A DNA stretch of 64,000 nucleotides, taken from positions 102,750-166,749 of the forward strand of contig NW_026516306.1 in assembly GCF_025602895.1 (NCBI RefSeq), written 5' to 3'. The stretch's first letter is position 1; each line of letters begins with the position of its first letter. The notes beneath the pieces are model-generated. The model ran no database searches. It was not told the DNA's origin and was given only the letters and a program-made list of their open reading frames with translations. Origin of the DNA: Polychytrium aggregatum. Lineage: Eukaryota > Chytridiomycota > Chytridiomycetes > Polychytriales. Shown in pieces: positions 12,144 through 51,773 of this stretch. The position numbers were made by a program, and so were the translations under genes.

Positions 12144-15100
12144 ATGACCGCCTCGACCTACCACCGAGACTATACCCCGGTCGATATCCATGCGCTCTTC
12201 GAGGCCGTCGAGTTCCCGTACCCCAACAGCTATCAGCTGTGGAAGATGAATCTGGTGGCTTTGTCCAATACACGGTCTCCGGCGTCCGGAGTCGACGGCA
12301 CCCACCTCGACGACCACAGCGGCAGCAACAGCAACCGAATGACTCTGTTTGTCGCTGTCGACAGCCGAGTGCATGTGCATTCGATTGAGATTCCGGTCGT
12401 GGCGGTGACCGACGAGCACCGTCCGCATATATCGCTGGAAAGAGTGCTTGATGGAACAGGAGTAAGTCAAGTGGTGCGCTTTCTCCTCGTGCTGGTCTGT
12501 CGCTTTTGCTCTCTGGCGATGCTTCCAACGTGTGTCTGGCAAATGCCCCCGACCACCGCCAACTCATCACCCGCTCCCACTGCCATGAACAGATCATCAA
12601 TGCAATCCACCTTGGCCACGCCGGGAACCTCGAGATTCTGGTCGCAGCCGACGACGACGGCAATGTCATTGTGTGGTTCACATCGGATCTGGATCGCCCT
12701 CCGCTCAAATTCACGTATGCCCTTGGCCTTTGTACTGGCGCTGTTTTGGATTCGGAACGATCTGCCGCCGACAGACTGGCTGCATTTCATGCATCTGCCT
12801 CATTCGCAATCATGGTGCGGAGGCATGAGTGATTGGCCCTTGACCCTCGTGTCATCTATGCACCCACTTCGTCATCCACTCGCTCCCCCAACTGCACAGC
12901 AACGACATTTCGACATGGGGCATTGCCACCCACGGTCCCAACTACCTGCTTGGAGTGTCCTCCAACGCCCATGTTATCACAGTCTGGGACATCTTCAGCG
13001 AACACATTGGCGAGACACACTATCGCCGGTCGACGAAGGATCCTCTTGGAGGAACCAGCTTGCGGAGACTTCACGGCCACGACCACAACATTCCCTCCAT
13101 TGCCTTCACCAGCTGTGGTCGCCGGCTCTTGTCCTGCTCTATTGGTGGGTGGCCGAGCGCAAACAGGAGTGGCGATACTGCCATTTCGTCGATACAGCTC
13201 GTATTGCTCGGCACTCATCCACCACAAGCGGTGCTGGGCTCGCAGTCATAGTGGATCTGGCGGTCTGGTCGCTGAACGGCATTGCGGAGCTTCTGGCCAG
13301 CGGCTCTCAATCCGATGGACAAGGCCCGCTCACTTCGTCAGACCCATATGCTGACACACCATCGCACCCATCGTAGACCGGACTTGCAAGCTCTGGGATC
13401 TCAAGACCGGCGTCTGCCTAGCGAGCCATCGGCTTTCCCAACAGTGGTGAGTGGCAGGCTTGCTGGGTGATATCAGTCCGACCAGCTCGGGCTATCAAGC
13501 TTTCTGTATTTGATCCACAGATATGTGTTCCCTAGCTCACCACCCCTCCCTGGCTCTCCAGGAACTGGAGTATCGTCGCTATTCCCGCCAATGGGCTGAA
13601 GCACGTTCATTCTGCTTCGCCGCTGCGGTGTAATCCCTTTGTCAATACCGAGACGGCCGAGCCCAAGAGCTATCCAGTTGTTTGTGGGCATGGGCTCCCG
13701 GAAGCCAGACTCTGGCGGAATCAGTACCGAGCCAGAGCGGTTGGGCACGATGTCTATACAGACGAGCCATCGCTTGAATCTCAATCGAGTCCACTGTGTG
13801 ATTCCGATGAAGATTCAGGCCCAGAGTCGGCATCTGACACTGACCTGGACCAGGAGCAGAGCCCGCATCGGTGCTGGGAAGCAGACTCAAAGACTTCGAA
13901 ACGGCACAAAAACAATCGCGATCACACTTGGACAGGCCCAAACAGTAGTCCGACCTTGGCTCTTCCTCCTCCCATAGCACCTCCCGACTCCTGCCTGTCT
14001 CGACATAAGGCCATCGATATCTTCCCATCGTTTCTGCCGCACCAGCCGTATCAGCGCATTTTTTCGCTGCTCAGCGCCTTCAGCATCGCTGACTACGACG
14101 ACTATGAAGACGGGGAAGTGGACAGCGAAACCCACAGCCACAGCGAAGACGAGGAGGTCCAGGGCAGCAACCACAGCGGAACGGAGCAAGAAAGTCTCAA
14201 CGGCGATGCCGACGACACAGATGCCGACATATCGGCGAGCCAAGGGTCTGAGCATGAAGACATCATCTTACAGACGTCCGACCATGGAGCTTCTTTGGAA
14301 GACGTCGACAGCCCGTGGGAAGGTGCCACCGGTGGCGAGTGGATGCCGGTTGATCACAGCACCTCATCCAATGACGAGAACCGCGTCGATGGCCTCTTCC
14401 CCAGCAACGCTCCAACAGCTCTGACTCACGAACCCGGCTCAAGTTCATCAAACAGTGCCGTACAGGTCGAACAGAGTGGTCCAGAGGAAACGACCTCGAC
14501 CGAATCCTCGGGTGACCCAGGGTTCTTTACTCCGAGATCATTCATCACAAGCGATGTCTCTGGTCCATATGATGAGGATGCAGATGATCAGAGAAGTCGC
14601 GAAGGCTCCATCGTCGTCCAAAGCGGCCACACAGACCACCATGATAGTCTTGTTCATGGTGACGGTGACAGCGCTAGCAACAGCAACCCCAGTGACCATA
14701 TCAGCCAGTCGTTTCATTCGCTGGTCTCCTCGGCCGATAATTCGCCTGATCCCGGCGCCAGCCAGTTGGAATCAGAGCCACCTAACGAGATCCCAGATGT
14801 CTCTGCCGAAATGGAGAGCATGCGTGTCGCCGAAGAGGAGGAGCGGCATCCCGTTGCTGGGCTGCTCTTCAAGCGCAAGGAACTGTCTCGATCCTCACTT
14901 TTCTCGGGGCATAAGAAGCCCCGACGCGACACAAGCGAGGAAGGCTGCATCCTGACAGACACCCAAAGCTCGCCCGAGCCACTCGTCCTGGTTGCCACGC
15001 TTCGAGACCTTTATCTGCTGGATAGTGAGAGCCTTTCGCCGCTGTTTGTGATCAAGGAACTCGTTTCAAGAGCTGATATGCGACTTCATCCGCATATCCT

Positions 15101-15940
15101 CCCTTTCGAAAGTAAGCAATGAGCACTCGTTTCGTGAGCGGATTCTTGGTCGATGTACCCTAATCCTGCAATCACCAAACTGACCCACTGGATTGGCTTG
15201 CTCGATGCTTTGCCAGGGCTCTCCATCGTCGAGTGGGTCGAGGAACTCGGGGTCGCCTTTGTGGCGAGCCAAAAGGGATACGTTGCTGTTGTTCGTATTT
15301 TGACGTAAGTGTCTGGGGAATATGCCGCCATCGGTTGATGGAGCAAAGCTGCGAAGCCGCCGGTACTGGTCCGTTGGAATGACCGAGCCGATGCTGGTGA
15401 GATTTCTTCATCATTGGGTGGGTGGCCCGATGCTGACTCTGCCTGCCTCTCAAACCGGCTCTACAGATGGTGGAATCCGTCAAGTAACAAATACGAGTAC
15501 AGACTGGTTCGTGCTAATATTTGCACAGGAGCGTACGCTAGATGAGATCGAGTGTGCAACTTGATGAAAGTGCGACGGCCAGAAGGACAAGCCGTCTTGC
15601 TGTTGCAAGCATGGTCTCTCACTGAACTACGCTTTGTACAGCAAACGGAGGCATTTCTGCCAGAGACCACGCCGCCGACAATGCCGCTGTTGGGGATGTC
15701 TGTACACAAGCACCGTGAGCAAGGGCTCCTGGACTTTTTTTCGGCAACGCTGGGTAAGCTGACTTGCTCAGGAGTGACGGTGTTGGCTGTACATATTCTA
15801 TTACAAGCTGAGACAAAGCTGACACGACGCCATCTGACCAAACAGTCTTGATGTATCTTGACGGGACCACTTTCGCATACGAGATTCGGAAGGACACCAT
15901 GGCCAGCAGGGTCTTTGAGGGTCTCGACAGCGGATCCTAA
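12144..15940 (+). CDS. CRT10-like WD40 protein
   Basis: Predicted 879 aa from nine exons: 12144-12461, 12593-12714, 12900-13144, 13378-13447, 13562-15111, 15217-15304, 15467-15506, 15642-15753, 15846-15940. The N-terminal part reads as a CRT10-type propeller: LEILVAADDDGNVIVW, STWGIATHGPNYLLGVSSN, then a WD repeat SCSIDRTCKLWDLKTGVC. A long acidic Ser/Asp/Glu-rich insert (about residues 290-700) follows. The propeller closes with SIVEWVEELGVAFVASQ, TMPLLGMSVH and LMYLDGTTFAYEI, as in fungal CRT10 proteins. Yeast Crt10 represses ribonucleotide reductase genes; the role here is inferred. Phases agree throughout. The 15507-15641 intron has a weak donor (gttcgt) and is the least certain junction. 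Confidence 0.7.
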
Positions 15941-29474: not shown

Positions 29475-29972
29475 GGTGCGGGCCAGATTCAGGAGCGGCG
29501 CTGCTGCTGTCGGTGCGATGGGATGCACTGCGGTGCGATGTGGTGCGATGTGGTGCGATGTGGTGTGATGCGACAGAGCGAGGGGTTGATCAGGAACTGC
29601 GATTGCCTTTGCCCGCTTTGTGGCTGCATCTGCGACACGGCCCGACCAGGATGTGGCATGTTGTGGCCGGCCAGCGTAAAGCCGGGAGCGATATTGGCTC
29701 GAGCCGGACGCCCTCTCGGTGCCAGCGAGAATCAGGCGAGAGCCACGCGAGAGCTGCACGAGAAGCCGCCGGCTTCCCACACCGATTTCGATCCAGTCGT
29801 CTTGTGGCAACCAAGCATCCGTTCGCATCCTCGATCTCGCAAAACATCACCCGCCTGCCCGCCTGCCCTTCCCGGCCCCAGCTCCCCTGCCCGCACAGCA
29901 GCCTCGACTCCCTTTCCTCTTGTTTAAATAACCCGCCGCTCCCCTTGCTCCCCATTGCACGAAGCCAGTTTG
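29475..29972. promoter_or_regulatory. Divergent promoter, golgin / Nudix-CCCH-W2
   Basis: 498 bp between divergent starts. A TATA-like tttaaataa at 29923-29931 lies about 45 bp before the plus-strand ATG. A 10-bp repeat (29531-29570) sits nearer the golgin start. Reading frames across the repeat are artefacts. Confidence 0.5.
29531..29570. repeat. 10-bp tandem repeat (GGTGCGATGT)
   Basis: Four near-perfect copies, the last with one change. It lies 57 bp upstream of the golgin ATG, so it could affect that promoter. Confidence 0.85.
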
Positions 29973-32900
29973 ATGGAGATCTCCCAGTATGCTTCTTTGC
30001 TCATCTACAGATTCAACCGGAACACCATCGAGTTTTTGTTAGTTAACGACTCCTTCTCGAACAAGCGTCACTGGTCGCCGCCACGAGGCAAGATCATTGG
30101 CCAAGAAGACCCGCTTCCCTGTGCCCTCCGCGAAGCCATTAACTTGACCGGGCTTTCCCACAAAGACCTAATTCTGGCCGACACCCAGAGCCTGACTCCG
30201 GCCCACCTGTTCAAAGAAAGCCCCTCCTCACCCTCGCCTTCCGCCCTCCGTCTCGAGATCAAGGTAGGTCCTGCTGAGGCCGGCTCTCTGACTGCCAAAC
30301 TCAGGGCCGTTGGGTCCTCGCTCCGCGGCATCCGATCGGACCAGCTTATCTCGCGGTTTTTGATCTTGTCGCAGTATCTCTCCGGTGCCAACCGCCCCAA
30401 GTCCGTCGTCCACTTTCTCGCACAAATCTCCCCAAATGCCCACATTCATCCAGGCGGCCTGGCCGGGCTGCACTTTGCTTGGCTCCCGCTCCAGCAGGTA
30501 GGCGGTCGTGTGGCCAACTCTGTCCGCTTTGCTGCATTCGGCATCGTCCAGCGGTCTGGCCAACCTGCGGAGCTGCGCCGTCGCTACGCCGTCGCTGCGA
30601 AGGCGATTATTTGACAAATCCAATGACTCACCGTCCGTCGATCCTGGGCGGAGGGCTATTCCAGGCTTGCGAAAAGTGCGTCTACAAGTCGATGCAGGAT
30701 GTTCTCCGTCATGCACACACCTTTATCGAGGAGAAGCGGCCCAAATCGACCTCGTCTCCCCCTGCTCGTGCTCCTTTGGCCTCCGCTGGCGCTGGCACCG
30801 GCCCTGCGTCTGGTGGCGCCATGAACTCACCGACATCGTCGCTTCCCCTCAACCTCCAACGACTGCAACTCGAGCGATCGTCCCGTCAAGATCGAGGTGG
30901 TGATAGCCACAGCCCACGAAGGTCGGAGCGCTCCGTCAATAGCCGTGAGCACGTATTTGCCCCGAATGGCGTGCATCCCAAGAGAACTTCGCAGGATGAA
31001 CGCCCGACTTTGCCTCAGTCCGAGACTCGTGGTGGCAGCGGCCACGCCAAACAGCGCTCGGGAAAGGAACCAGTCCACGAGGCCGATGCCCCGCTGTACA
31101 AGACCCGTCTCTGCGAGCGGTTTGAAATCGAAGGCAACTGCCCATACGGCAGCCACTGCACCTTTGCCCATGGCACGGTAAGTCGCTTCTTGCAGCGTCA
31201 ACAATGGAGAATGGACAGGCTTGTAACCGTCCATGGACAAATGTCTGTTGTTTATTGGACCCTTGCTGGAGCTCGCCTGTGCGTTTGCATAGTCGACGTG
31301 CGTATTCATGCCTCTTCTCCCCTCCTGGTCTCAGATCGAACTGCGCGACCGCAAGACTTTTGGTGGCGAGACGGACAAGAAGGAGGGTCCCGAGAACCCA
31401 CTCTACAAAACCAAAATGTGTGAGCGATATCTGAACGACGTGGGTATCTCTACATCGACGTTCTTAAATGTGCTCGTGTTCTTTAGTTGCCAGCCTGCTG
31501 ACCAGATGCTTTTCATCCTGCTCCTTTCTCAGAACTTTTGCCAGGTACCGCAGCACGGCTCGAGGCTTTGTTCATGTTTTAGTTGTCCGAGGGCAGTGTG
31601 TATGCCCGAGATTGTGTTGCCTGATCCCGGGTGATCGCACCAACTGCTCTGTTCCTGGTCTGGCCATGGGCAAAGTTGATTTGCTGGCGGATCATTTGAC
31701 TAACGGCATTGCAAACCTCTACCTGCCTTTGCCACAGTATGGCCCTCGATGTAACTTTGCCCATTCGTACGTAGAAGCTGTGTGGATTCTGTTGCTGCGT
31801 GGATTCGGTTGCTCCATGGCTGTAACGCACAGCAGCTTACACATACTCTATCTTCCGTCCCTGTCATCGTATGATATCGCTGAACGGCTGCGCTGATACC
31901 AGGCCCGAGTAAGTGGTCTGTTGGATAGATGACGCAGCGCCAAGTACGTCCGTCTTCGCCGTCCTTGCGTTTCGCTGATCCTTGCCACCATTGTACTCTA
32001 CCAGGGAGCTCCGCGTACGACAGTCTGCGACCCCGACCGCCTCTGGCATCAATGGAGACCCGTCTCTCGCTCTGCCCACAGAAGGACCGCTTCGGCGAGA
32101 GCGCCACGCCACACATGATCGCAAACCCACCCACGACCGCAAGCCGTCGCACGGCGACTCCAAGGATGCCGTCGAGAGAATCCATGATCCTGAGCGGAAG
32201 TCGTCCTCTGACCCAGCGGACTCTGAGCGACCAAAGGAAACCCTGGCGACCCATACCTCCCCGTAAGCGCCAGCAGCTGCAGACTTGTATCAGATGGTGT
32301 CGCATTGTTGGAGTGTCATCCGTCCAGTGCCAACGTTAATTCTTGCGTCCCGGCTCTGCACAGGCTTGCTGAGCGATCAGGCTCAGGTAAAGGCTCACCA
32401 ACGTCGGTCAGTGGTGGCGCTGGCTTTGGTGCCGGTCATGGTCATGGGACGGCCCATCCGCCGCATCCCAAGCCGCAAGCTATCAAGATCCAGGAGATCG
32501 GCCTCTCGTCGAGTCTGGGATTGCCCCACGCTCATCATTCCCGCGCGACAACACCCGAGCCGCGCGAAGAGCATAAGCAGTGGCTCAATCTCAAGGAGGT
32601 AACTAGACTTGCGCTCACGTTGCGGCGTGGCCTCTCGGGTGTGGAAACTGATAGCCATGTGTGGACACACACTCATCCGCAAACGCCTCAAACACCAGGA
32701 CACAAACGATAAGGCGTGGATGAAGGTTGTTGACATCAGCGAAAGCGATGTGCAGATGCTCCAGGCAGTGTAAGTGCGCACATACTGCTGCTCTTATCGC
32801 TATAGTGCAGAAAGGCGCCTCGATGTGTGGGCCCATGCGCCTGACAACACCGGTCGCTGTGATCTTGCAGGAAAAAGGCCAGTGATAAGCCGACTGTGGA

Positions 32901-33508
32901 CAAGAACGAGGCGGCAGAGGCCAGTCTTGTGAAGGAGTTTTGCGATCAGGTCAAACCCATACTCTCAAGGAGTGGAGACAGTGCTGCCGATATTGCAGCC
33001 CAAGTCAAGCACATCACTCGCTTCGAGTTCCGCCACGATCTCCCCAAGCAGAAGCTGCTCAACGTGCTCGTCCGCGGGATCTTTGAGGACTGCGACGGCA
33101 TCGTCAAAGTCGTTGCTGCCACTCAGCCCCTGTTCCAGAAGGTAGGTTGCTGTCCGCAGCGGTAGGCTTCACGCTCCTCCGACGAAGGGGCTGCATCAGT
33201 CGGGCTGACACATATCTTTTCCGTCCCATTCGTCTCACCCATCGACCCTACGCATCCAGTTCATCAACAGCGCTGCAGATCAGATGTGCCTGCTTCGCTC
33301 GTGGGAAAAGTTCCTCGCCCGGCCCACTGGCCAGCAGCACGCCAGAAAGGCGCCGGCGTTGTTCAAGCAGCTGTACGATCTGGATCTGATTGACGAAGAG
33401 GTGTTCCTGGAATGGTACGGCGCCCAGGGCGACAACGACGTGAGGGCCAAGTGTAAAGCCTTTGCGGAATGGCTCCAGACTGCCGAGGAAGAGTACAGCT
33501 CCTCGTAG
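29973..33508 (+). CDS. Pseudo-Nudix / tandem CCCH zinc finger / W2 domain fusion protein
   Basis: Predicted 720 aa from twelve exons: 29973-30263, 30375-30497, 30665-31177, 31335-31439, 31533-31544, 31738-31766, 31903-31908, 32005-32262, 32364-32598, 32699-32769, 32871-33141, 33260-33508. Residues 1-165 match Ap4A-hydrolase Nudix proteins (HWSPPRGKIIGQE, RPKSVVHFLAQ), but the Nudix box ends REAINLTGL, so two catalytic Glu are Asn57 and Leu58. Exon 3 carries both the last Nudix helix and the first finger, proving the fusion. Fingers are C288-x8-C-x5-C-x3-H307 and C338-x8-C-x5-C-x3-H357, each led by YKTRL or YKTKM as in TTP/Zfs1 proteins that bind AU-rich mRNA. Residues about 560-720 are an eIF5/5MP-type W2 domain (VFLEWYG, AFAEWLQTAEEE). 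Inferred role: mRNA-specific translation or decay control. Exons 5 (12 nt) and 7 (6 nt) are microexons. Confidence 0.82.
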
Positions 33509-34255
33509 AACCTCGGAGCCTGCAACAGTCGTGGTCGCCGCTGTGATGAACGGATTCTGCGCACAGCCGCGGTGCTCCTGGACTTGATGTCCGCTGCTGT
33601 ACTGGGCTGCGAGCACAGCACCCCACGTGAAACAGGATGCCCAGTGACGATCGTCGGCAACCGGATGGGAATGCACGATCGTCGGCAACTGGATGGGAAT
33701 ACACAGTCATCCATCACCCTCCATGACAGGTGGATCCTCGGTACCATAGGCGCTGCGACATCGCGGCATGCGGGATCGCTGGATCTCGGCGTTGCCGCAA
33801 CCCGGCCGCTCGCCACATCAGCGCGGCCCGTCTGCGGGACTTGTCCCTTTCGCCTTCTGTCCCGCATGTCCGCACGTCCATCCCAGCGCCCGCACCATGT
33901 CCCCGCTCGTCCATTCCCCACTCGCTCCGGCGGACCTCGGCTGGGACCGACGTGTCCGCGTCACGGGATGCTGCGCAGTTCACAAGATAAGAGCCCGTTC
34001 TGGCCACCAGATCAGGCCGCAACAGATCATCTCGATCGCCGCCCAACGTCGCCCAGGTCATCGCTTCGACGCCCGTCGCCAGTTGCCTACCCAGGTTTGC
34101 ATCTTTCGGAGCCACCCCTGCTGTCCGTCCGCTGTTGCCTTCGGTGCAGAGCCGCACCCGCCCCCTTGAAGCCGGTCTCTAATCTCCTGCTCCCATCTGC
34201 CTTAGCCGCCGCTGTTGACCCTCGCTCTCCTGCACAAAAGCACCAGTCTGTCACC
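33509..34255. other. Intergenic spacer with 28-bp duplication
   Basis: 747 bp before argininosuccinate lyase. It holds one tandem 28-bp duplication (33647-33702). The lyase frame stays open upstream to 33572, but that stretch is not protein-like and is treated as 5' flank. Confidence 0.5.
33647..33702. repeat. 28-bp direct tandem duplication
   Basis: Two adjacent copies (33647-33674 and 33675-33702) starting acgatcgtcggcaac, differing at two positions. Confidence 0.85.
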
Positions 34256-36284
<2,029 letters not shown>

Positions 36285-41924: not shown

Positions 41925-44900
41925 TCATAGGTATTTCTGCACTTTCTTCAGTTCATCCGGAGTGAACTTCAAGATCATTCCCAGGACCTGGAGCAGCTGA
42001 GCCTGCCGTACGTCCAGACCATCCAGCCCACGAGCGAGCAATCGACAAGAGTAAGCGATCTGAGACACACTTGCGGGGGGGGGTTCCCCAGCACCAGCGC
42101 GAGGCGCCCGCCCAGTCGCGCTGATCCAGCGCTTCATGCCTGCTGTTTGCCTTCTCTCTGCTCATTCTCGTTGGGCAACCCTCCGCTGGACTGCAGCACG
42201 AGATACGTACCCGCTTGTCCTTGAACTCGAGGAACTTGATAATGATGTTTTTGATGTATTCGGTGTTGGGGTCCGGGAGCGACTCCAACGAGCTCGCTGC
42301 TGATCCAGGCTGGCTTGGATTCCGGCCCGATCCCATGCTGTGGTTCGACGTCGTTGATCCACGCCGCTCGATCGGGGAGCTGGCGCTTGAGCCGTTTGCG
42401 CCTTGGTTCAGGTTGGTCTGGGAGTTGCTGTGGCTCAAGTTGCGGGAGAGTTTTCGCACCTCTTCCTTGAGGGCCTGTCCAAGATGTGCAGAGAGTCCAG
42501 CCCCAACAGGGATAATAAGCATAAGGCTGCTTTGGAAACGAAGAGCAAGGAGCTGTGCGAGCCGTGGACGGCCACTCAGATGCCCCAAGAGACACTTCGT
42601 GTTGCCAGGCAGCCACCACGAGAGGAAGCAAGAGTCCCTATTGATCGAAACCCGCCACAAAACCGATATGCAACCCACCTTGTTGAGGTTCTTGAGCTGC
42701 CCTTCTCGCATGCGAAGCTCTGACACGGTGTCTTCGTGGGAAGCTGCGATGCTGCGGAGCTCCTCCTCCAGCGCCAGGATCTTTTCTTCGAGGAGGCCGG
42801 ACTTTTGCTGTGCGACGGAATGCGTGGGGACACAACCGTGGATGGGTCAGAGTGCAGTGGGAGGGGATAGAGTGTAGCAAACTGGTGGGCTAAGCCAGCA
42901 GGCAATGTCGGCGGCAGGATCAGGATGCTTGGACACATACCCTTTCTTGCTCGATTTGGGCTTGCCACACGCCGTCATTGAGCTTAGCCTCCTGCAGCGA
43001 CGCAATCGTGTCGGACAGATGGCGATTAGATTCCTCAAGCTCGGCCATCTTCTCTTCGAGCTCGACGATTCGCTCGGTGGATTTGAGGGTTTCGGTCTTG
43101 AGGTCGTCGTCAAGCTTCTTGAGCTCGTTCTCGCGAGAGTTGAGCTCGGATTTGAGGTCGCGCTGCTCGCGCTTGAGTGTCTCGCGTTCGTCCTTGGACA
43201 CCTTGGCCGCTTGGTTGGCGTTGTAAACCTCGGTCTCGAGCTCCGAAAGTTTGACCTTGAGGCCGTCGTTCTCGATGCTCTTCTTCTGGAAGAGCTTTTT
43301 GCTCGTGTCGAGTTCGTCGTCCAGGGTGGCGAGCCGCTCCTCCATCTCCCTCATGCGCGCACTCCATTGGCGCAGTTGATCGGCCTGGGCCTCGACGATC
43401 GCCTGGCTGGTGGTGAGGTTGGCTTGCTGGGCCCGGAGAGACTGCGCTACGGACACCTGGTCCCTGAGACTGGCCTCGAGTTCGGTGATGCGTCCACGCA
43501 GCTGGTCGGCCACGCTCGCGAGCTCGGCCTTCTTGCTCTCGTTTTCGGCGTCGGTGGCTTCGTGGCCTCGCAGCCTCATGTGCATGTCTTCGAGCTGCCG
43601 TGTGACGGTCGCCATCTGGCCCTCGCGCTCGCGGAGGTCCCGTTCGTGGAGTGCCTGCATTTCAGCGATGCGCTCCTGTAGCTTCGCGGCTTCGTCTTCC
43701 TTGAGCTTGAGGTCGGCCTCGAGCTTGATGATTCGATTCTTGCTGCTGCGCAGGAGCTGCACCACCTTGATCTTTTTCTCTTCGGTCTGCTCGTACTGGG
43801 TCCGTAGCTCGCCCAGCTCGGCGGTCAGCTGTCCGATCGTCTCGTCGCGTTGGTGGATGGTCTGTTTGGCAAGGGCCAGCGACTCCTCCGCGCTGTTGAC
43901 CCGGTGCACAAACTCCTGCTTCTCGCTGGCTCGCTGCTCCAGGCTCTCCTGCAGGACCGTGACCTGGTCCTGCGACTCGGTATACCGCCGTGTCAGCGAA
44001 TCGACCTGCGCCCGAAGCATCTCGGCCTGCACGACCTGGACCTGGAGGGTTTCCTTTTCGGCAGCGAGCTTGTCAAGCTGGGTCTGGAGCTCGGCGAACT
44101 TGGCACCATCGACGGTGCCCTGATCCAACTGTGTGGTGAGTTCCTCGATGCGCTGCTGCAGGGCTCGCTTCTCTCCCTCCAGCAGCTCGGCGCCGCGCTT
44201 CGAGGCCTCTTGGAGCTGCTGGTGTTGCTCTTGAGAGGTCTGCAGACGCTTCTCGATCTCGGCGCTCTGGTTGGTGGCAGTCTGGACAGCCGCCTGGAGC
44301 TCGGTCAGCTGTTTCCACTCGCGCTCGGCCTTTTCAGCAAGCTCCTCCGACTTCTTAGTGGACTCTTCAAGCGCAAGCTCCAGCTCGACGACGCGGGCTT
44401 TGGCCGCCTTGAGGTGCTCCTTGGCCTCACGCGCCTTTTGCGCAACATCTTCAAGCTCGCCAAGCTTGTCTTCCTTTTCGGAAAGCGCCACGCGGGCCGA
44501 CTCGAGGTCGCCACGGACCTGGACGAGCTCGCCTTGCAGCACCGAGAGGCGCTTGGTATGGTCTGCATCCGCCTGCTTGAGAGCACGGACGGCAGCATCG
44601 GACTCATTCAGCTGCTGAGCGAGGGCGGCTGCTTTCTGCTTGGCAGCGGCTTCCTGATCCTCAAGTGCGCTGGTTTTGGACCGAAGATCTTCGAGCTGCT
44701 CGCCCAGGACACGAGCCCGCTCTTCTTGCTGCGTGTGCAGGTCCCTGAAAGGCTCCAGAACCTTGATGTGCTCGTTTTGTTGCTCGATCGTTTGAGCAAG
44801 TTGCTGGATCTGCGAACCGAGGCTGGTCTTGAGTGACTCGGCTGCATGCTCCAGCTCGTGTTGCCGGTTGTGGGCGTCTTCGATCTGCTGTTGGGCTGCC

Positions 44901-47900
44901 ACACAGTCGGCGCGAGCCGCTTCGAGCTCGTGCTGGAGACGATCCGCCTGCTGCTTCAGAGCCTCGTAGGCGGTGCTGCGCTCATCCAGGGCAGCTTGGC
45001 GGGAGGCGGATTGCTCCTGAAGAGAGACGAGCTGCAGATCGGCCTGCTTCTTTTCTTCTGCCAGGGCCTGATACTTGATCTGGCGCTGCTTCTCCTCCTC
45101 GTGCGCCTGGAGGCTCTTGGCATGGATCTCTTCCAGATCCAGGTGCAGCTTGCGCAGCTTGGCCTCGGTTTCGACCAAGCGGATCGAGGCGTCAGAGTGG
45201 TCCGAACCGTCAAGCTGCTGCTTGAGATCGGCTACTTGTCCGTTGAGGAGATGGATGCTGGTGTCGCGCTCGCTCAGGGAGCTCTCGAGACGCCGGATCT
45301 TGATGTGGGTTTCAGACTGGAGGCTATCCAGCTGGATCTGCAGCTGGGCAGACGAGGTGTTCGCAGTTCCGAGTTGTGCCTGCAGATCCTTGACCTCGGC
45401 TTCCAGCGCTGTGGCCCGGGAGCTGCTGTTGCCCAGCTCGATCTCGAGCCTTTCGACGGCAGACTTGAGGGATCCTTCGCGCGAAGCACTCTCAGACAGA
45501 TCCGACTCGAGTTTTTTGGTGATCGTGGCAAGCTCCGACTGAGTGGCAGCAAGCTTGTTGGTGATTTCGGTCAGCTCCCGCTGATGCTGATCAAGCGACG
45601 CCTTCAGACGAGAGCTCTCCTGCTGCGACTCTTGGAGAGCAGCAGAGACAGTGTCGTGTTGCTTCTGCAGGGCATCGATGTTCTGCTGAGCAGCTGCAAG
45701 TTGCTCGGATGCCGTTTTCTCAGCATCTTGGTGGAGTTGGCGTGCATGCTCGAGCTCGGAGCGGTGGCGCTCGGCCTCGTCAGCGAGACTCTGGAGTTGA
45801 GCCGAGGACTTCTCTCTCTCCTCGGCAGCGAGCTTCTGCAGTGACTCGAGCTCGGCGATCCGATCCGTGAGCTTGGTCGCCTCGGCAGCTAGTTGAGCGC
45901 GCTCTTGGCGAAGACTGTCGGCGTCCTTGGCGTTGTCCAGAGCAGCAGCAAGCTCGGACGCCAGATCGTCGCTCCTCTTGCCAAGGTCGGCAACGCTGTT
46001 CAAGGCCGATTGGAGCTGGGACTCGGAGGAAGCCTTGGCGGAGGAAAGCTGGTCCAGCCTGTCATTCAGTTGAGCGATGGACTGTCCCAGGCGGGAGAGC
46101 TCCTCCTGGTGCACCCGCGATTCTTCGGCCAATGCTAGCTCGCTAACGCGGATCTGATCGACGAGGTGCAGCTTCTCAGTCTCCAGGACGGATTTCTCGC
46201 CCGAAATCTCGCTGAGCTGGAGCTTGAGCAACGAGGTCTCATTTTTCAAGGCAGTGAGTTCGGCGTCCTGAACTTCGACTTGCTGCTTGCGCTGGACGAG
46301 CTCTTCGTCAAGACCGCGGCACTGCACCTCGAACTGGGACTTTTCCTGTGAGACTTGAGCAAGATCCAGCTGCAGCTGGGCCAGCTTGGCATCCTTACCG
46401 CGGCTGGTCTCGAGCTCCATCAGAATCGTAGTGGTATCGGTCTTGACGGGTGAGGTGGCCGAAATGGTGGGCGAGAGCGGCGTCTCTTTGATGACGGTGT
46501 TGACATCCGAGTTCATGAGCTTGGCGACCATTGCCTCGTTCTCGACACGCAGCTCTTCACACCTGGCACTGGCTTCGTCGCGCTGCTCGGCCATCTTCTT
46601 GACCGAGTTGGTGAGTTCGCGGATCTTGAGCTTGAGTTGCAGCGTGCTCTCGTGGCCTGTGGCGGCAAGGGGGTCGCTGAACGAGCTTCGGGGGGAGACG
46701 ATCTCTTCGACAGGGGCCGCAGGGGTCGCAGGGGCGGTTTGCTGCTGCTTAAGAACCTCGATTTCCTGAGGTTGGGATTAGATCCCAGGTCAGCGGCGCC
46801 GACGGAAGAGGGACCACACAATATGGAGAACGTGATGGGCGCTGTAATAGCACCATGATGGACGCTACGATGGGCGCCATGGTGGACACTGTGACGGGCA
46901 CTACGGTGGGCATTATGATTGCCATGCACAAACCTTCTCTCGCTCATCCAGCATGGCCTGGAGGCTGCTGAGCAGTTCCGTCTTTGAGGTGATGTCTATT
47001 CGGTGGGCTTCTCTGGACTCTTTGAGCTCGCGGGTCAGTTTGGTGAGTTCCTCGGCCGAAATCTAAATGGATTGAGCAGAAGACGATCGAGTCAGTGGCT
47101 CTGTCGATCCGCTGGCACAAGCTCAGAAGAAGGAGCCTCAAATGGCGATGATGCTAAAGCAAGCTGCGTTGAGGGCGATGTCGTATTCTGTCGGTGAATG
47201 AATCATGTGAGGACGAGTGGGCGAGCAAGGCGGGCCTACATCGTTTCTCTGGCGGATGCTCTTGAGATAGGTATCAAAGGCCTCGACATCATGCGTGTTG
47301 TTGATGGCGGCGATGGGGGTGTTGCTCCGGATGATGGACTCGATCTGTGTGTTCTTCTTTTGCATGAGCTTGTATGCCTTGACCAGGTCTAGCGGCCACA
47401 TGGAGTGCCAGTACAGAAACGACGGCAAGTACATGGTCGAGGGAGCGAATCGTGCAGGGGGGGGGAGTCGCAGGCAGTTGCAGGCAGTTGCAGGCAGTTG
47501 CAATATAGAACCAGGGAAAGGCAGCGAAGCGTTGGCGGAGCAGCGAGCACGCGGAGGACAGTAGGGATGGTGGAAATATTAGTCTGCGGACCCGAAGGAG
47601 GAGGAGGGGTATGATCAGGGCGGCAATGCCGATTGAAATAAGGACGAGTTTCACGATGGCCAATGGGAGCCGATAAAGGAAATCGACAAACTCGCTGCGC
47701 CAGCAAGCTTGCAGGGAGAGGGGGAAGCGAAGGACCGGGGATTGCGAGAGGGAAAATAAGGGCACCCTATTGGAGGGATGGCGAGTGCGTGTGGACGATG
47801 CGGGGAAGGAGACAGAGCCGATCCTGCATCGAAAGCGTACCCGTAAACTTGGACTCGTACTTCTTGAGCCGCGAGAGCTTTTCCTGGATCTCGCCTGGGG

Positions 47901-48141
47901 CCAGATCCATCTGGCTGATGATCGAGTCCATGGAGGCTCGCGGGGTATCCGTGAGCGGGTCGTCGACCGAGGGCCGGATAGATGAGTCGGCCATGGTGGG
48001 CAGCGATGCGCTGGACTGGGAGGGCGATTGGGAGCCGGACGTGGCATCATACTTGAGCGAATGCTGGATGGAGGCGACGGCATCGCGGGACGCACCGACG
48101 GCCTTGTTGAGCTGGGACTGGAACGACGATAGCATGGACAT
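41925..48141 (-). CDS. Large GRIP-domain golgin (1624 aa)
   Basis: Long coiled-coil tether of the trans-Golgi network. Seven exons read downward: 48141-47841, 47388-47240, 47062-46934, 46765-42941 (3825 nt), 42807-42679, 42474-42211, 42002-41925. All phases agree. The N-terminus (MSMLSSFQSQLNKAVGAS) is an amphipathic, possibly membrane-sensing segment. Residues about 110-1500 are almost unbroken heptad coiled coil rich in Leu, Glu, Gln and Lys. A Ser/Asn-rich linker (about 1525-1575) precedes the GRIP domain (about 1578-1624): TEYIKNIIIKFLEF and QLLQVLGMILKFTPDEL, with the invariant Tyr at about 1584. The stop follows VQKYL. GRIP domains bind Arl1-GTP. Its length resembles yeast Imh1 and the animal golgin-245 and GCC185 class. 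The antisense strand of the giant exon is also open for long stretches, a composition effect. Confidence 0.92.
46838..46924. repeat. Degenerate GATGGGCGC/ACGGTGGGC repeat in golgin intron
   Basis: About seven imperfect 12-bp units (atgatgggcgct, acgatgggcgcc, atggtggacact and similar) in the 46766-46933 intron. Confidence 0.65.
47471..47500. repeat. 10-bp tandem repeat in golgin intron 1
   Basis: Three perfect copies of caggcagttg within the first intron of the large golgin gene. Confidence 0.9.
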
Positions 48142-49767
48142 GGTCGGCGGTGGGGAAGCAGCCGGCCAAGGCGAAGGGCAGGCCAAGGAGGTCGGTTGAG
48201 GCGTTGGGCGATCGGCTTGATGGAGGCGAAACGACCAAAGAGCCAACCACGAGTGCGGCACTGTTGTGTGTGGCCCGGTGTGCTGCGATGCGCCGCGCCG
48301 AGCGACCTGCCTTTTGCGGTGCTGGTGCGACCGACGGGACTGTTGGCTCGATTTGGCGGTGTGAGGGAGATGTGACACAGAGCCTCGACTGGTCGCACAT
48401 GTGTGCCGGAAGCAACCGCGACAGCGCTGTTTCTGTGGCTGCAGCCCGAAATAGCGATGTCGATGTCGGTGTTGGTGTCGATGTCGATCGTTTTGACGGT
48501 GCTGTCGATGCCGATGTCGGTGTCGGTGTCGACGGCGTCTGTGCACGAGCGAGGGATACAATCGGCGGCGTTGCTGGCCAGCCCGCCCTGCACGTTGGCC
48601 TGACGGTTGTCGGCAGCATCCATGGGTGCAGGATCGGGGGTGCTGGCAACGGCCCAGGGTGTCTGTGCGATGCCTTGCATCTGCCAGACGGACCGAGGTG
48701 CGGCTGTCGCTTGCGCACCAGCACCAGTACCACCACCAGCACCACCACGATAACCACCATCACGATCACCACCACGCTTCCAACCAGGGCCCACGGGCCG
48801 AGATGCGCTCCGCTCGCCACTGGGGATCGCAGCGCCGGCCCGCCTCGACAAGCACCGCCGATGTCGATGCCGATCACAACACCACCAACATCGCAACAAC
48901 AACCGCATCAGCACCACCGGCGACAAAACCAACCACAGCAAAGCAGCACCACTAACACAAGCACTGCTTCCCCGCAAGCGCATGGACCGCAGCGGCAGTC
49001 CGCGCAGTCGCCGGCCCAAGCATATCGCCGGTGCAGAACATTGCCCTTCGGCTGCCCGCACAAGCTCGTCATGCTCGCACAGGCTCGAGCCCACAGCCCG
49101 TGCACACCCTATTGCCCACAGCGTGTGCGCTCTGCCGCCGGCCGCACGGCCGTGTGCCCCAGTCCTGTGCCCAGCGCCGGCCGCGTTGTCGGCGTGCGTC
49201 TGATCCATAGACCGCCGTCGGCCGTCGCCGAAACGTGCCGCTGGCCTTGCGCCGCGGCCCCAAGATGCCGTCATATGCATTGGACAACCGGCGCCTCGGG
49301 ACAGGGGGCGGCCTGCGGTGCGCTTTTTCTTGGGCCCACCTGCCCGCGAGGGGGGCAGGCAGGCTTTTCTCTTCGGCAGCGTTTGCCTCTGCCTGCTCGC
49401 TCCTCTGCGCTTTGGCCGTTCGCTCATCCGCGCTTGGGTCTCGGCCGACACCCTGTCAAGTCGCTGTTGCTGTCAACCCTCTTCCAGACGGCGCCCGCAT
49501 TATCCGTTTGACATTGCCTCCCAGACTTGCGTCCCAACCCCGCTTCGCCAGTCCCCGGTCGCATTGCCCAATCCCGCGGCACCACTTTCGTCCCCCCTCG
49601 GTACTCTTTTCTCTGTCCAAGACCCCCTTTTCCTCCTGCGGTCGATCCCGCAATCGATCCCACAGTCGTCCCCGCAGTCGACTCCACGCTCGCATTTGCC
49701 TCCACGCCTGTCTCTGCTTCTGCTACACAATCTGCTCCCGCGCTCGAGTCGAATGCTGCCTTGAGAA
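48142..49767. promoter_or_regulatory. Long divergent spacer, golgin / membrane protein
   Basis: 1.6 kb between divergent starts. It contains GTCGATGTCGGTGT-type degenerate repeats (about 48455-48535) and CAC/CCA triplet-rich DNA (about 48715-48780). Open frames of 453 aa (+) and 720 aa (-) overlap each other but are low-complexity and have no recognisable motif. It may hold promoters, leaders and first exons that I cannot define. Confidence 0.4.
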
Positions 49768-50784
49768 ATGTTCCTGGACTTTGCCCTCCTCGGTCTCGAC
49801 GCCGCCTCCAATGGCACCTCAGCGTCCCCCTCGGCATCCCCTTCGGCATCCCCTTCGGCATCCCCGTCGCCCAGCGCAGACTCCAACTTCAATCTGACCC
49901 TCCCCGTCGCCCTTGTTGGCACCGCCGTGGTTGTCGTGATTCTGCTGGTCATTATCCTCCCGCCATGTCTCGCCCGCTCCTCCCTCAAGCGCGAGATGCG
50001 GTCCTTGTCGACCGCCGCCCTGCAAACAACCCCTGCCTCTGAGCCCCGCAGCCCGGCGTCGCTCCACGACCTCCTGAGCTACTCGACTGCCAGCAACGGC
50101 CTGTCCGACCACCGCAGAACCAGCTCGACGTCGTCGACATCCTCCGCGCCCGACCCATCTCTCCACAGCGATGCAGCCACCGTCGTCTTCAGACCATCTC
50201 AGTCCCTCGAAACAGAGTACCGGCGCCATCTCCAGGCAAAATCTCTGCCAAAACCCCAGTCACTCGAGGACACCGCCACCCTGTATTCCTCTCGCCGCTC
50301 GGCGCACCACTCGACACACGCCTCCATCGACCGCCTCAAGGCATTTGGCTCGCCACCAGGCTCGGCACCGGGCTCGGCACCGGGCTCGGCGCACTCGTCA
50401 CCGAAGCACCCCACCGTCCCTTCGCCTCATCTCTCCTCTCACCTCTCTCCCAAGCCTCCACATGCCGCTGCTCAACCCTCGAACCTCTCGTCAATGCCCT
50501 CGCAGGGCTCGCTCAAGTCCCGAGACGAGGGCCAGGTCCTGAACTACAACTATTCGCCCTTCAGTATCCGGAGCCCTTCGCCATCGCTGACCATGAGTGG
50601 CTCGCTCCCGCGCCAGGAAGACCAGCAGTACCGGCTGCTCAGCGCCCAGGAGATTGCCAAGGGCCAATCGGCGTTCCGTCTCAACCACGCTTCATCCAAG
50701 GCGTCGCTCAAGAATCGTCCGCTGTCGCCAAGCAATGCCATGGTTCTGCCGGTCTACTCACACGATGCCTCGTCCAGCGAGTAG
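49768..50784 (+). CDS. Single-pass membrane protein with Ser/Pro-rich cytoplasmic tail
   Basis: 338 aa in one exon; family not recognised. There is a short N-terminal part with SASP repeats (12-bp DNA repeat at about 49825-49870), then one hydrophobic segment LPVALVGTAVVVVILLVIIL (about residues 46-65), then a basic stop-transfer patch and a 270-residue Ser/Pro/His-rich tail with PGSA repeats and likely phosphorylation sites. The layout recalls fungal wall-stress sensors of the Wsc/Mid2 kind in outline only, because no cysteine-rich domain or signal peptide is visible. An upstream exon carrying them could exist. Codon pattern and the stop right before a microsatellite support a real gene. Confidence 0.55.
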   Translation: MFLDFALLGLDAASNGTSASPSASPSASPSASPSPSADSNFNLTLPVALVGTAVVVVILLVIILPPCLARSSLKREMRSLSTAALQTTPASEPRSPASLHDLLSYSTASNGLSDHRRTSSTSSTSSAPDPSLHSDAATVVFRPSQSLETEYRRHLQAKSLPKPQSLEDTATLYSSRRSAHHSTHASIDRLKAFGSPPGSAPGSAPGSAHSSPKHPTVPSPHLSSHLSPKPPHAAAQPSNLSSMPSQGSLKSRDEGQVLNYNYSPFSIRSPSPSLTMSGSLPRQEDQQYRLLSAQEIAKGQSAFRLNHASSKASLKNRPLSPSNAMVLPVYSHDASSSE

Positions 50785-51773
50785 TCGCCGCCATTATCAT
50801 TGTCATTGTCATTGTCATTGTCATTGTCATTGTCATTGTCATTGTCATTGTCATTGTCATTGTCATTGTCATTGTCATTGTCATTGTCATTGTCATCGCC
50901 GTTGCCACCACCCTTCCCCTCCGTCCTCTTTGCCACCACTTTATCCATCTATATACCAGAATTGCTGGTCCCGGTCCCCTCCTGCAACTCTACTCTCCCT
51001 GCCACGCCGTGCGAGAGGACCGTGGTATCTTCCAGCACGTCGACGCCCCCCCTCCCAACAACAACCCTCAGCCATCGTTCCACCCAAGCATGATGTGTCA
51101 AGCATCTCGGAGCCAACTGCACACTCACTCGCCATGGCCATCACATCATCGCAAACACTGCATACGTGTGTCCCCCACTCCATCGAATCGACACTCAATC
51201 AACCATTCTTTCCTTCCCCCGTTCTGGTTCGCAGCGTATCTCTTCCTTCCACTCTGCGTCTGTACAAAATTTCCCATCCCTCATCTCGTCGCCGTCGTCT
51301 GCGAGCGTCTTGATAGATACAAGCAAATATACTGCTATGTGATACAGCCCGTGCAGCCGACATCAGAGAATGCAGGATTCGAGGATGCGGAGACAGTCGC
51401 CAGCTGTCACGCAGACCCACTGCGACGCCATTGTCGCGAGCGCTGTGCTTGGTCAATATATGTGGATACGTGTATTCAATGTCCAAGGGGTGGTTCAAAA
51501 GCAATGGAGGCATGGCGAACTCCGTTTCGGTATGCAAGCGCCACAGACCGAACGGCATGCTCGTCACATGAAGCTCGCCCGTCCGCATCCGCAGACTTTG
51601 ATCAGCCAGCACATGTCCGAGAGCATGTCAGAGCACATGTCGGAGCACATGCCGCGCCGATGGCTTCCATGCGGAAAGCAGCGACCCATTCAACCGGGGC
51701 TACAGCGAACTTATCTTGAAGCGAGACACCTTCACACACGGATGGCCACGGTCGCCTCAGACAGCACTGGCTA
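50785..51773. other. Convergent intergenic region
   Basis: 989 bp between the membrane protein stop and the HAS1 stop. It includes the TCATTG microsatellite and, at about 51611-51650, four imperfect copies of a gagcacatgtc unit. No gene was recognised. Confidence 0.5.
50797..50892. repeat. (TCATTG)16 hexanucleotide microsatellite
   Basis: Sixteen perfect tandem copies beginning 13 bp after the membrane protein stop codon, in its presumed 3' UTR. Antisense translation gives Asn-Asp repeats, which are not real. Confidence 0.97.

Follow-up and report, generated by a model that had tools for sequence, protein, structure and literature searches.

We describe a gene of the chytrid fungus Polychytrium aggregatum that lies at positions 29973-33508 on the forward strand of a 64,000-nucleotide stretch of contig NW_026516306.1 (positions 102,750 to 166,749, RefSeq assembly GCF_025602895.1); this whole stretch is referred to as the window, and all positions are counted within it. 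The gene very probably encodes a single protein, of 720 amino acids, that joins a Nudix domain related to the human diadenosine tetraphosphate (Ap4A) hydrolase NUDT2, two CCCH zinc fingers and a W2 domain of the kind found in eIF5. The domain content makes it very likely that the protein belongs to a fungus-specific, NUDT2-related group, Nudix subfamily A, and the novelty lies in adding a further member to that group, with an enzyme motif that looks broken. Concerning function, we place at roughly even chances the reading that this protein is an mRNA-tethered mimic of eIF5 that carries a non-catalytic module for docking or for binding a dinucleotide or a cap.

Profile searches bore out the three domain identities that an initial annotation had read from the sequence. 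Pfam returned NUDIX, two stretches of zf-CCCH and W2, in that order along the protein. In the spliced whole protein zf-CCCH (PF00642) scored 57.5 bits over its two stretches (cut-off 20.5) and W2 (PF02020) 59 bits (cut-off 30); NUDIX (PF00293) scored 19.6 bits, under its cut-off of 21.1, and passed just above it at 23.6 bits when the Nudix part (162 amino acids) was searched alone. In a phmmer search of the PDB, the best match was human NUDT2 (3u53), aligned over residues 9-159 from exons 1-3 (E 4.3e-13, 52.8 bits). Two NCBIfam families matched the Nudix part far under their cut-offs (14.6 of 103 bits and 12.9 of 116 bits). Neither the eIF5 N-terminal (GAP/zinc-binding) domain nor MA3 was among the Pfam matches of the 720-residue protein.

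The Nudix box (30087-30155, forward strand; amino acids 39-61) is degenerate. The formula printed in the available text of PMC5389931, GX5EX7REUXEEXGU, is kept in its first part as G39-x5-E45-x7-R53-E54, and the E-E pair has become N57-L58, giving REAINLTG where human NUDT2 has RETQEEAG. The ligand pocket is better preserved. Using the ligand-holding residues of Ap4A hydrolases named in the available text of PMC4734340, we found by alignment that human Tyr82 corresponds to Tyr98 and that Lys89 is kept within RPKSV, while the stacking Phe128 is replaced by Tyr and Lys42 by Arg. The pocket His just before a Trp is also kept; that text prints it as human His32, and it was placed by way of the parasite pair His43-Trp44. 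The likeness to NUDT2, the asymmetrical Ap4A hydrolase, extends over the whole domain with most pocket residues, but the human protein is a single-domain enzyme, and the fusion has two further domains as well as one stretch of some 20 additional residues. Because the E-E pair is lost while most pocket residues remain, ligand binding without catalysis is the simplest prediction, and the Nudix domain of this member is probably no longer hydrolytic.

Both fingers have the form C-x8-C-x5-C-x3-H. Finger 1 (31112-31171, forward strand; amino acids 288-307) follows the lead-in LYKTRL, and finger 2 (amino acids 338-357, same strand, spread over exons 4-6) follows LYKTKM. Two such fingers, the YKT lead-ins and the intercalating or stacking Tyr and Phe, present in both, recall the TTP/TIS11 proteins (ZFP36, Zfs1, Cth2), and the initial annotation had taken fingers of this spacing to be those that bind AU-rich mRNA in TTP and Zfs1. 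That comparison did not hold in detail: the linker between the fingers has 30 residues, against 18 in the TTP of the same genome, and the positions that recognise U and A carry other residues than in TTP. At lead-in position 5, where TTP has the Glu of YKTEL, finger 1 has Arg (YKTRL) and finger 2 Lys (YKTKM); both fingers have Glu in place of the TIS11d Arg at position 8, which follows the first Cys, and finger 2 has Met in place of Leu at position 6. The RNA contacts of TIS11d, and a basic residue at lead-in position 5 in ZC3H11 and MEX-5, a feature shared with the fusion, are taken from the available text of PMC3616968. It should not be taken for granted that UUAUUUAUU is read as by TTP, and a looser U-rich preference appears likelier. 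MEX-5 has such a preference, and we know of no protein of the MEX-5 or ZC3H11 type with a Nudix or W2 domain.

The W2 domain matched the C-terminal domain of eIF5 (E 1.6e-6) with both halves covered, across exons 11 and 12. It keeps DLIDEEVFLEWYG and FAEWLQTAEEE, which match two stretches of eIF5 that we take to be the acidic-aromatic ones. The W2 HEAT domain and both stretches are shared with eIF5 and with 5MP/BZW, from which the fusion differs in being tethered to RNA-binding fingers. W2 domains of eIF5, eIF2B-epsilon and 5MP bind, and compete for, the K-boxes of eIF2-beta, according to the available text of PMC12224906. The start codon of the fusion gene is preceded by T at -3 and followed by G at +4. 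In BZW/5MP a poor context with T at -3 is conserved and autoregulatory, and G at +4 never occurs, as stated in the available part of PMC5823381; the shared T at -3, set beside the differing +4 position, is only a hint of similar control.

The twelve exons proposed by the initial annotation join in one frame without a stop. Exon 3 (30665-31177, amino acids 139-309) is a single open exon that encodes the C-terminal Nudix helix (ACEKCVYKSMQDVLRHAHTFI), a low-complexity linker and finger 1, and because it carries both the last Nudix helix and a finger, the Nudix and CCCH domains belong to one gene, as had been argued from this exon. This link is firm. The link between the fingers and W2 is weaker, although likely. 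The in-frame joining of exons 8 to 11 was tried as proof of it and rejected: permissive splice rules allowed 49 in-frame chains, and in a null test of 800 draws, with a donor rule slightly looser than in that count, 53 random places of a comparable kind within the window passed the filters, and 24 of them closed in frame as well. Frame closure is therefore no evidence here. A codon model, trained on 20,948 codons from 56 long open reading frames, preferred the proposed frame over the two other forward frames in each of exons 8-12, with 5.8 bits against -8.2 and -3.8 in exon 9 and 4.4 bits against -7.5 and -1.5 in exon 10. The margin is modest, as reverse frames reached 3.9 bits in exon 9 and 3.7 bits in exon 10, and one intron frame, the best of them, scored 3.5 bits.

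The same region could be read as two adjacent genes, one for a Nudix-CCCH protein, closed by the in-frame TAA at 32264-32266, the other for a small W2 protein that starts from the ATG at 32720. The position of this TAA, which overlaps the splice donor of exon 8, suits such a division, as do the closure of frames at random places and the exon 9 and 10 codon scores that lie little above the best intron frame. We regard it nonetheless as very improbable: the codon usage of those two exons backs the proposed frame over the other forward frames, exon 11 contains no Met, and Nudix, zf-CCCH and W2 occur together in most published subfamily A proteins. Because most of these published members hold all three domains together, a single gene is more likely by far.

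Those published proteins were described by Pasterny et al. (2025, BMC Genomics 26:606, PMC12210691), whose survey covered 183 fungal proteomes and whose available text we follow throughout. Table 2 of that survey lists Nudix subfamily A with 84 proteins, confined to fungi and distantly related to human NUDT2, and most members carry W2 (PF02020) and zf-CCCH (PF00642). Expression is reported for Glomeromycota, Mortierellomycota and Mucoromycota. As to function, a part in stress or in nucleotide metabolism is suggested as possible, and the available text does not discuss a joint role of the fingers and W2. The fusion resembles subfamily A in having a PF00293 Nudix domain distantly related to NUDT2, zf-CCCH, W2 and low-complexity regions in a fungal protein; the comparison is with the published description of the group, and the present member is without the E-E pair of the box. 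The view of the initial annotation that the protein was undescribed, with no described protein of this order, must be given up, since the combination is in print as subfamily A, and the many annotated proteins of the same architecture that it had named as evidence against novelty are found in these 84. A literature search on Nudix, CCCH and W2 together yielded no paper, publications on W2 together with CCCH, judged by title and the opening of the abstract, included no such protein, and in other literature, searched partly for other questions, the architecture was absent among the matches listed.

How might such a protein act? The two fingers would bind U-rich or AU-rich single-stranded mRNA and hold the protein there. 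The W2 domain would bind the lysine boxes of eIF2-beta, as it does in eIF5, eIF2B-epsilon and 5MP, and, like 5MP, may interfere with eIF5 or eIF2B, in this case acting in cis on the mRNAs that the fingers hold. Initiation on these mRNAs would be altered, more likely down than up, and the Nudix domain may bind a dinucleoside polyphosphate or a cap or act as a docking surface. From homology we infer that the protein binds RNA and eIF2-beta; the sign of its effect and any control by a ligand are conjecture. The proposal of the initial annotation, an adaptor that binds mRNA and initiation factors, is a reasonable reading.

Several points weigh against the eIF5-mimic reading. Two of the box glutamates, E45 and E54, are kept, and with them some metal binding or activity may persist. 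According to the survey, the Nudix motif is well preserved in all its new subfamilies and keeps two or more metal-binding glutamates; their best docked substrates include NADPH, NAD+, Ap3A (diadenosine triphosphate) and Ap4A, and most of their members are predicted to be nuclear (PMC12210691), which fits poorly with control of initiation in the cytoplasm. The W2 domain is divergent, scoring 31 bits to the solved eIF5 against 127 bits for the eIF5 of the same genome. To these is added the join between the fingers and W2, which frame closure leaves unproven.

In a rival reading the Nudix domain is an active hydrolase of Ap3A, Ap4A or a cap, and the fingers and W2 merely position it at mRNAs or initiation complexes. 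The relationship to NUDT2 and the kept pocket residues suit this reading, and so does the presence of Ap3A and Ap4A among the docked substrates. NUDT2 itself shows some decapping in vitro, without in vivo evidence according to the available text of PMC4856261, and a human NUDT2 query found no clearer gene of its type in the genome: the fusion gene was the best match by a small margin (26.6 bits against 25.2 for C168/C362) in a search made exon by exon, which may miss split genes. In this protein, however, Asn and Leu take the place of the E-E pair, and according to the available text of PMC4734340 hydrolysis is due to a conserved glutamate, although which one is unspecified. We consider an active hydrolase unlikely. 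A decay factor like TTP, in which the fingers select mRNAs, the disordered parts recruit deadenylation factors and W2 is a minor contact, seems to us more doubtful still. The fingers are of the TTP kind, and the low-complexity linkers are long enough to invite this idea (114 and 194 amino acids, with boundaries of our own choosing), but a separate TTP is present in the genome, which has the 18-residue linker and scores 94 bits to TTP and TIS11d, whereas the fusion scores 51.5 bits to TTP and 48.9 to TIS11d; its lead-in residues are unlike those of TTP, and its W2 domain has kept the acidic-aromatic stretches. An extension of the eIF5-mimic reading is a switch gated by Ap4A and specific for certain mRNAs, in which the dead hydrolase would read a stress dinucleotide, or an Ap4A-like cap, and thereby control the capture of eIF2 by the RNA-tethered W2 domain. 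We hold this to be a long shot.

The gene model stands, less firmly so for exons 7-10, with GT..AG introns throughout. Exon 1 (29973-30263) provides the start codon and the first half of the Nudix domain (amino acids 1-97), and exon 2 (30375-30497) the second half, with the pocket Tyr (amino acid 98) and RPKSV (amino acids 104-108). After exon 3, exon 4 (31335-31439, amino acids 310-344) encodes the linker between the fingers, the lead-in LYKTKM and the start of finger 2, whose second Cys comes from exon 5 (31533-31544), a micro-exon of 12 nucleotides, and whose end lies in exon 6 (31738-31766). Exon 7 (31903-31908) has 6 nucleotides and yields FAHSPEELR, with the spacing of FAHGTIELR after finger 1. 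Two micro-exons within and just after finger 2 seem to us unusual for a fungal gene. Exons 8 (32005-32262) and 9 (32364-32598) encode low-complexity linker, and the short exon 10 (32699-32769) leads into the W2 domain; both exon 9 and exon 10 have more than one possible acceptor. The N-terminal half of the W2 HEAT domain lies in exon 11 (32871-33141), and the C-terminal half, with both acidic-aromatic stretches and the stop codon, in exon 12 (33260-33508).

Splicing controls led us to reject a chance assembly of the Nudix and finger parts from unrelated exons. Reading through introns 1 and 2, which ends at a stop in intron 2 and thus omits exon 3, lowered the NUDT2 match from 52.8 to 32.2 bits. 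Omission of exon 5 reduced the zf-CCCH score of finger 2 from 32.7 to 18.2 bits, under the cut-off. Omission of exon 7 left PF00642 unchanged and lowered PF25427 from 24.3 to 19.7 bits, and this exon is weakly supported for that reason. Intron 1 (30264-30374) measures 111 nucleotides, exactly 37 codons, and has no in-frame stop; a form that retains it would still be translatable, with an insert in the Nudix domain. Retention alone lowered NUDIX from 23.6 to 21.0 bits and interrupted the NUDT2 alignment, and was rejected on both counts. A second copy of the region in the assembly (C408), 99.88% identical over 7501 bases, is probably the other haplotype. Within the gene the two copies differ at 5 of 3536 positions; a single difference lies in an exon, where it is synonymous, and the other four fall in introns. 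These are too few to prove coding constraint.

Around the gene, a tandem array of 5.9 copies of a 10-base-pair unit, GGTGCGATGT, is found some 400 bases before the start codon (29512-29570), and 2.1 copies of a 28-base-pair unit follow some 140 bases after the stop codon (33647-33704). The ATG of the next gene (34256-34921, forward strand) is about 750 bases past that stop codon; the gene matched Pfam Lyase_1 with 155 bits, and its start presumably is that of an argininosuccinate lyase. Long stop-to-stop frames of 528 to 1285 amino acids are found at 42923-46777 and 47292-49472 on the reverse strand and at 50043-51716 and 13536-15119 on the forward strand. Among ten long stop-to-stop frames of the window, only the lyase frame had a Pfam match at E 1e-5.

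Elsewhere in the genome (64.7 Mb in 418 contigs) there is a separate eIF5 C-terminal domain, the one that scored 127 bits, together with other W2 genes; L002 and L003, among them, match eIF2B-epsilon and eIF5 in the PDB and are presumably 5MP. The runner-up of the NUDT2 query (C168/C362) was rejected as a second gene of that type, as its box reads by eye as that of a coenzyme A diphosphatase. Eleven matches to Fungal_trans, all over the cut-off, agree with the fungal origin of the genome, and RIB43A, a flagellar protein, matched on one contig, a sign of a zoosporic fungus. Viral contigs scanned with exon 3 matched its patterns at five places, and tblastn found no relative there.

To the published description of subfamily A these results add points at the level of residues: a pocket of the Ap4A type that is probably non-catalytic, fingers whose reading of AU-rich RNA would not be that of TTP, and a W2 domain of the eIF5 type. 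If the eIF5-mimic reading is right, the family would link the sensing of a dinucleotide or a cap to mRNA-specific control of initiation. Should the less probable Ap4A-gated switch prove true, it would provide a direct line from an alarmone to translation initiation in fungi.

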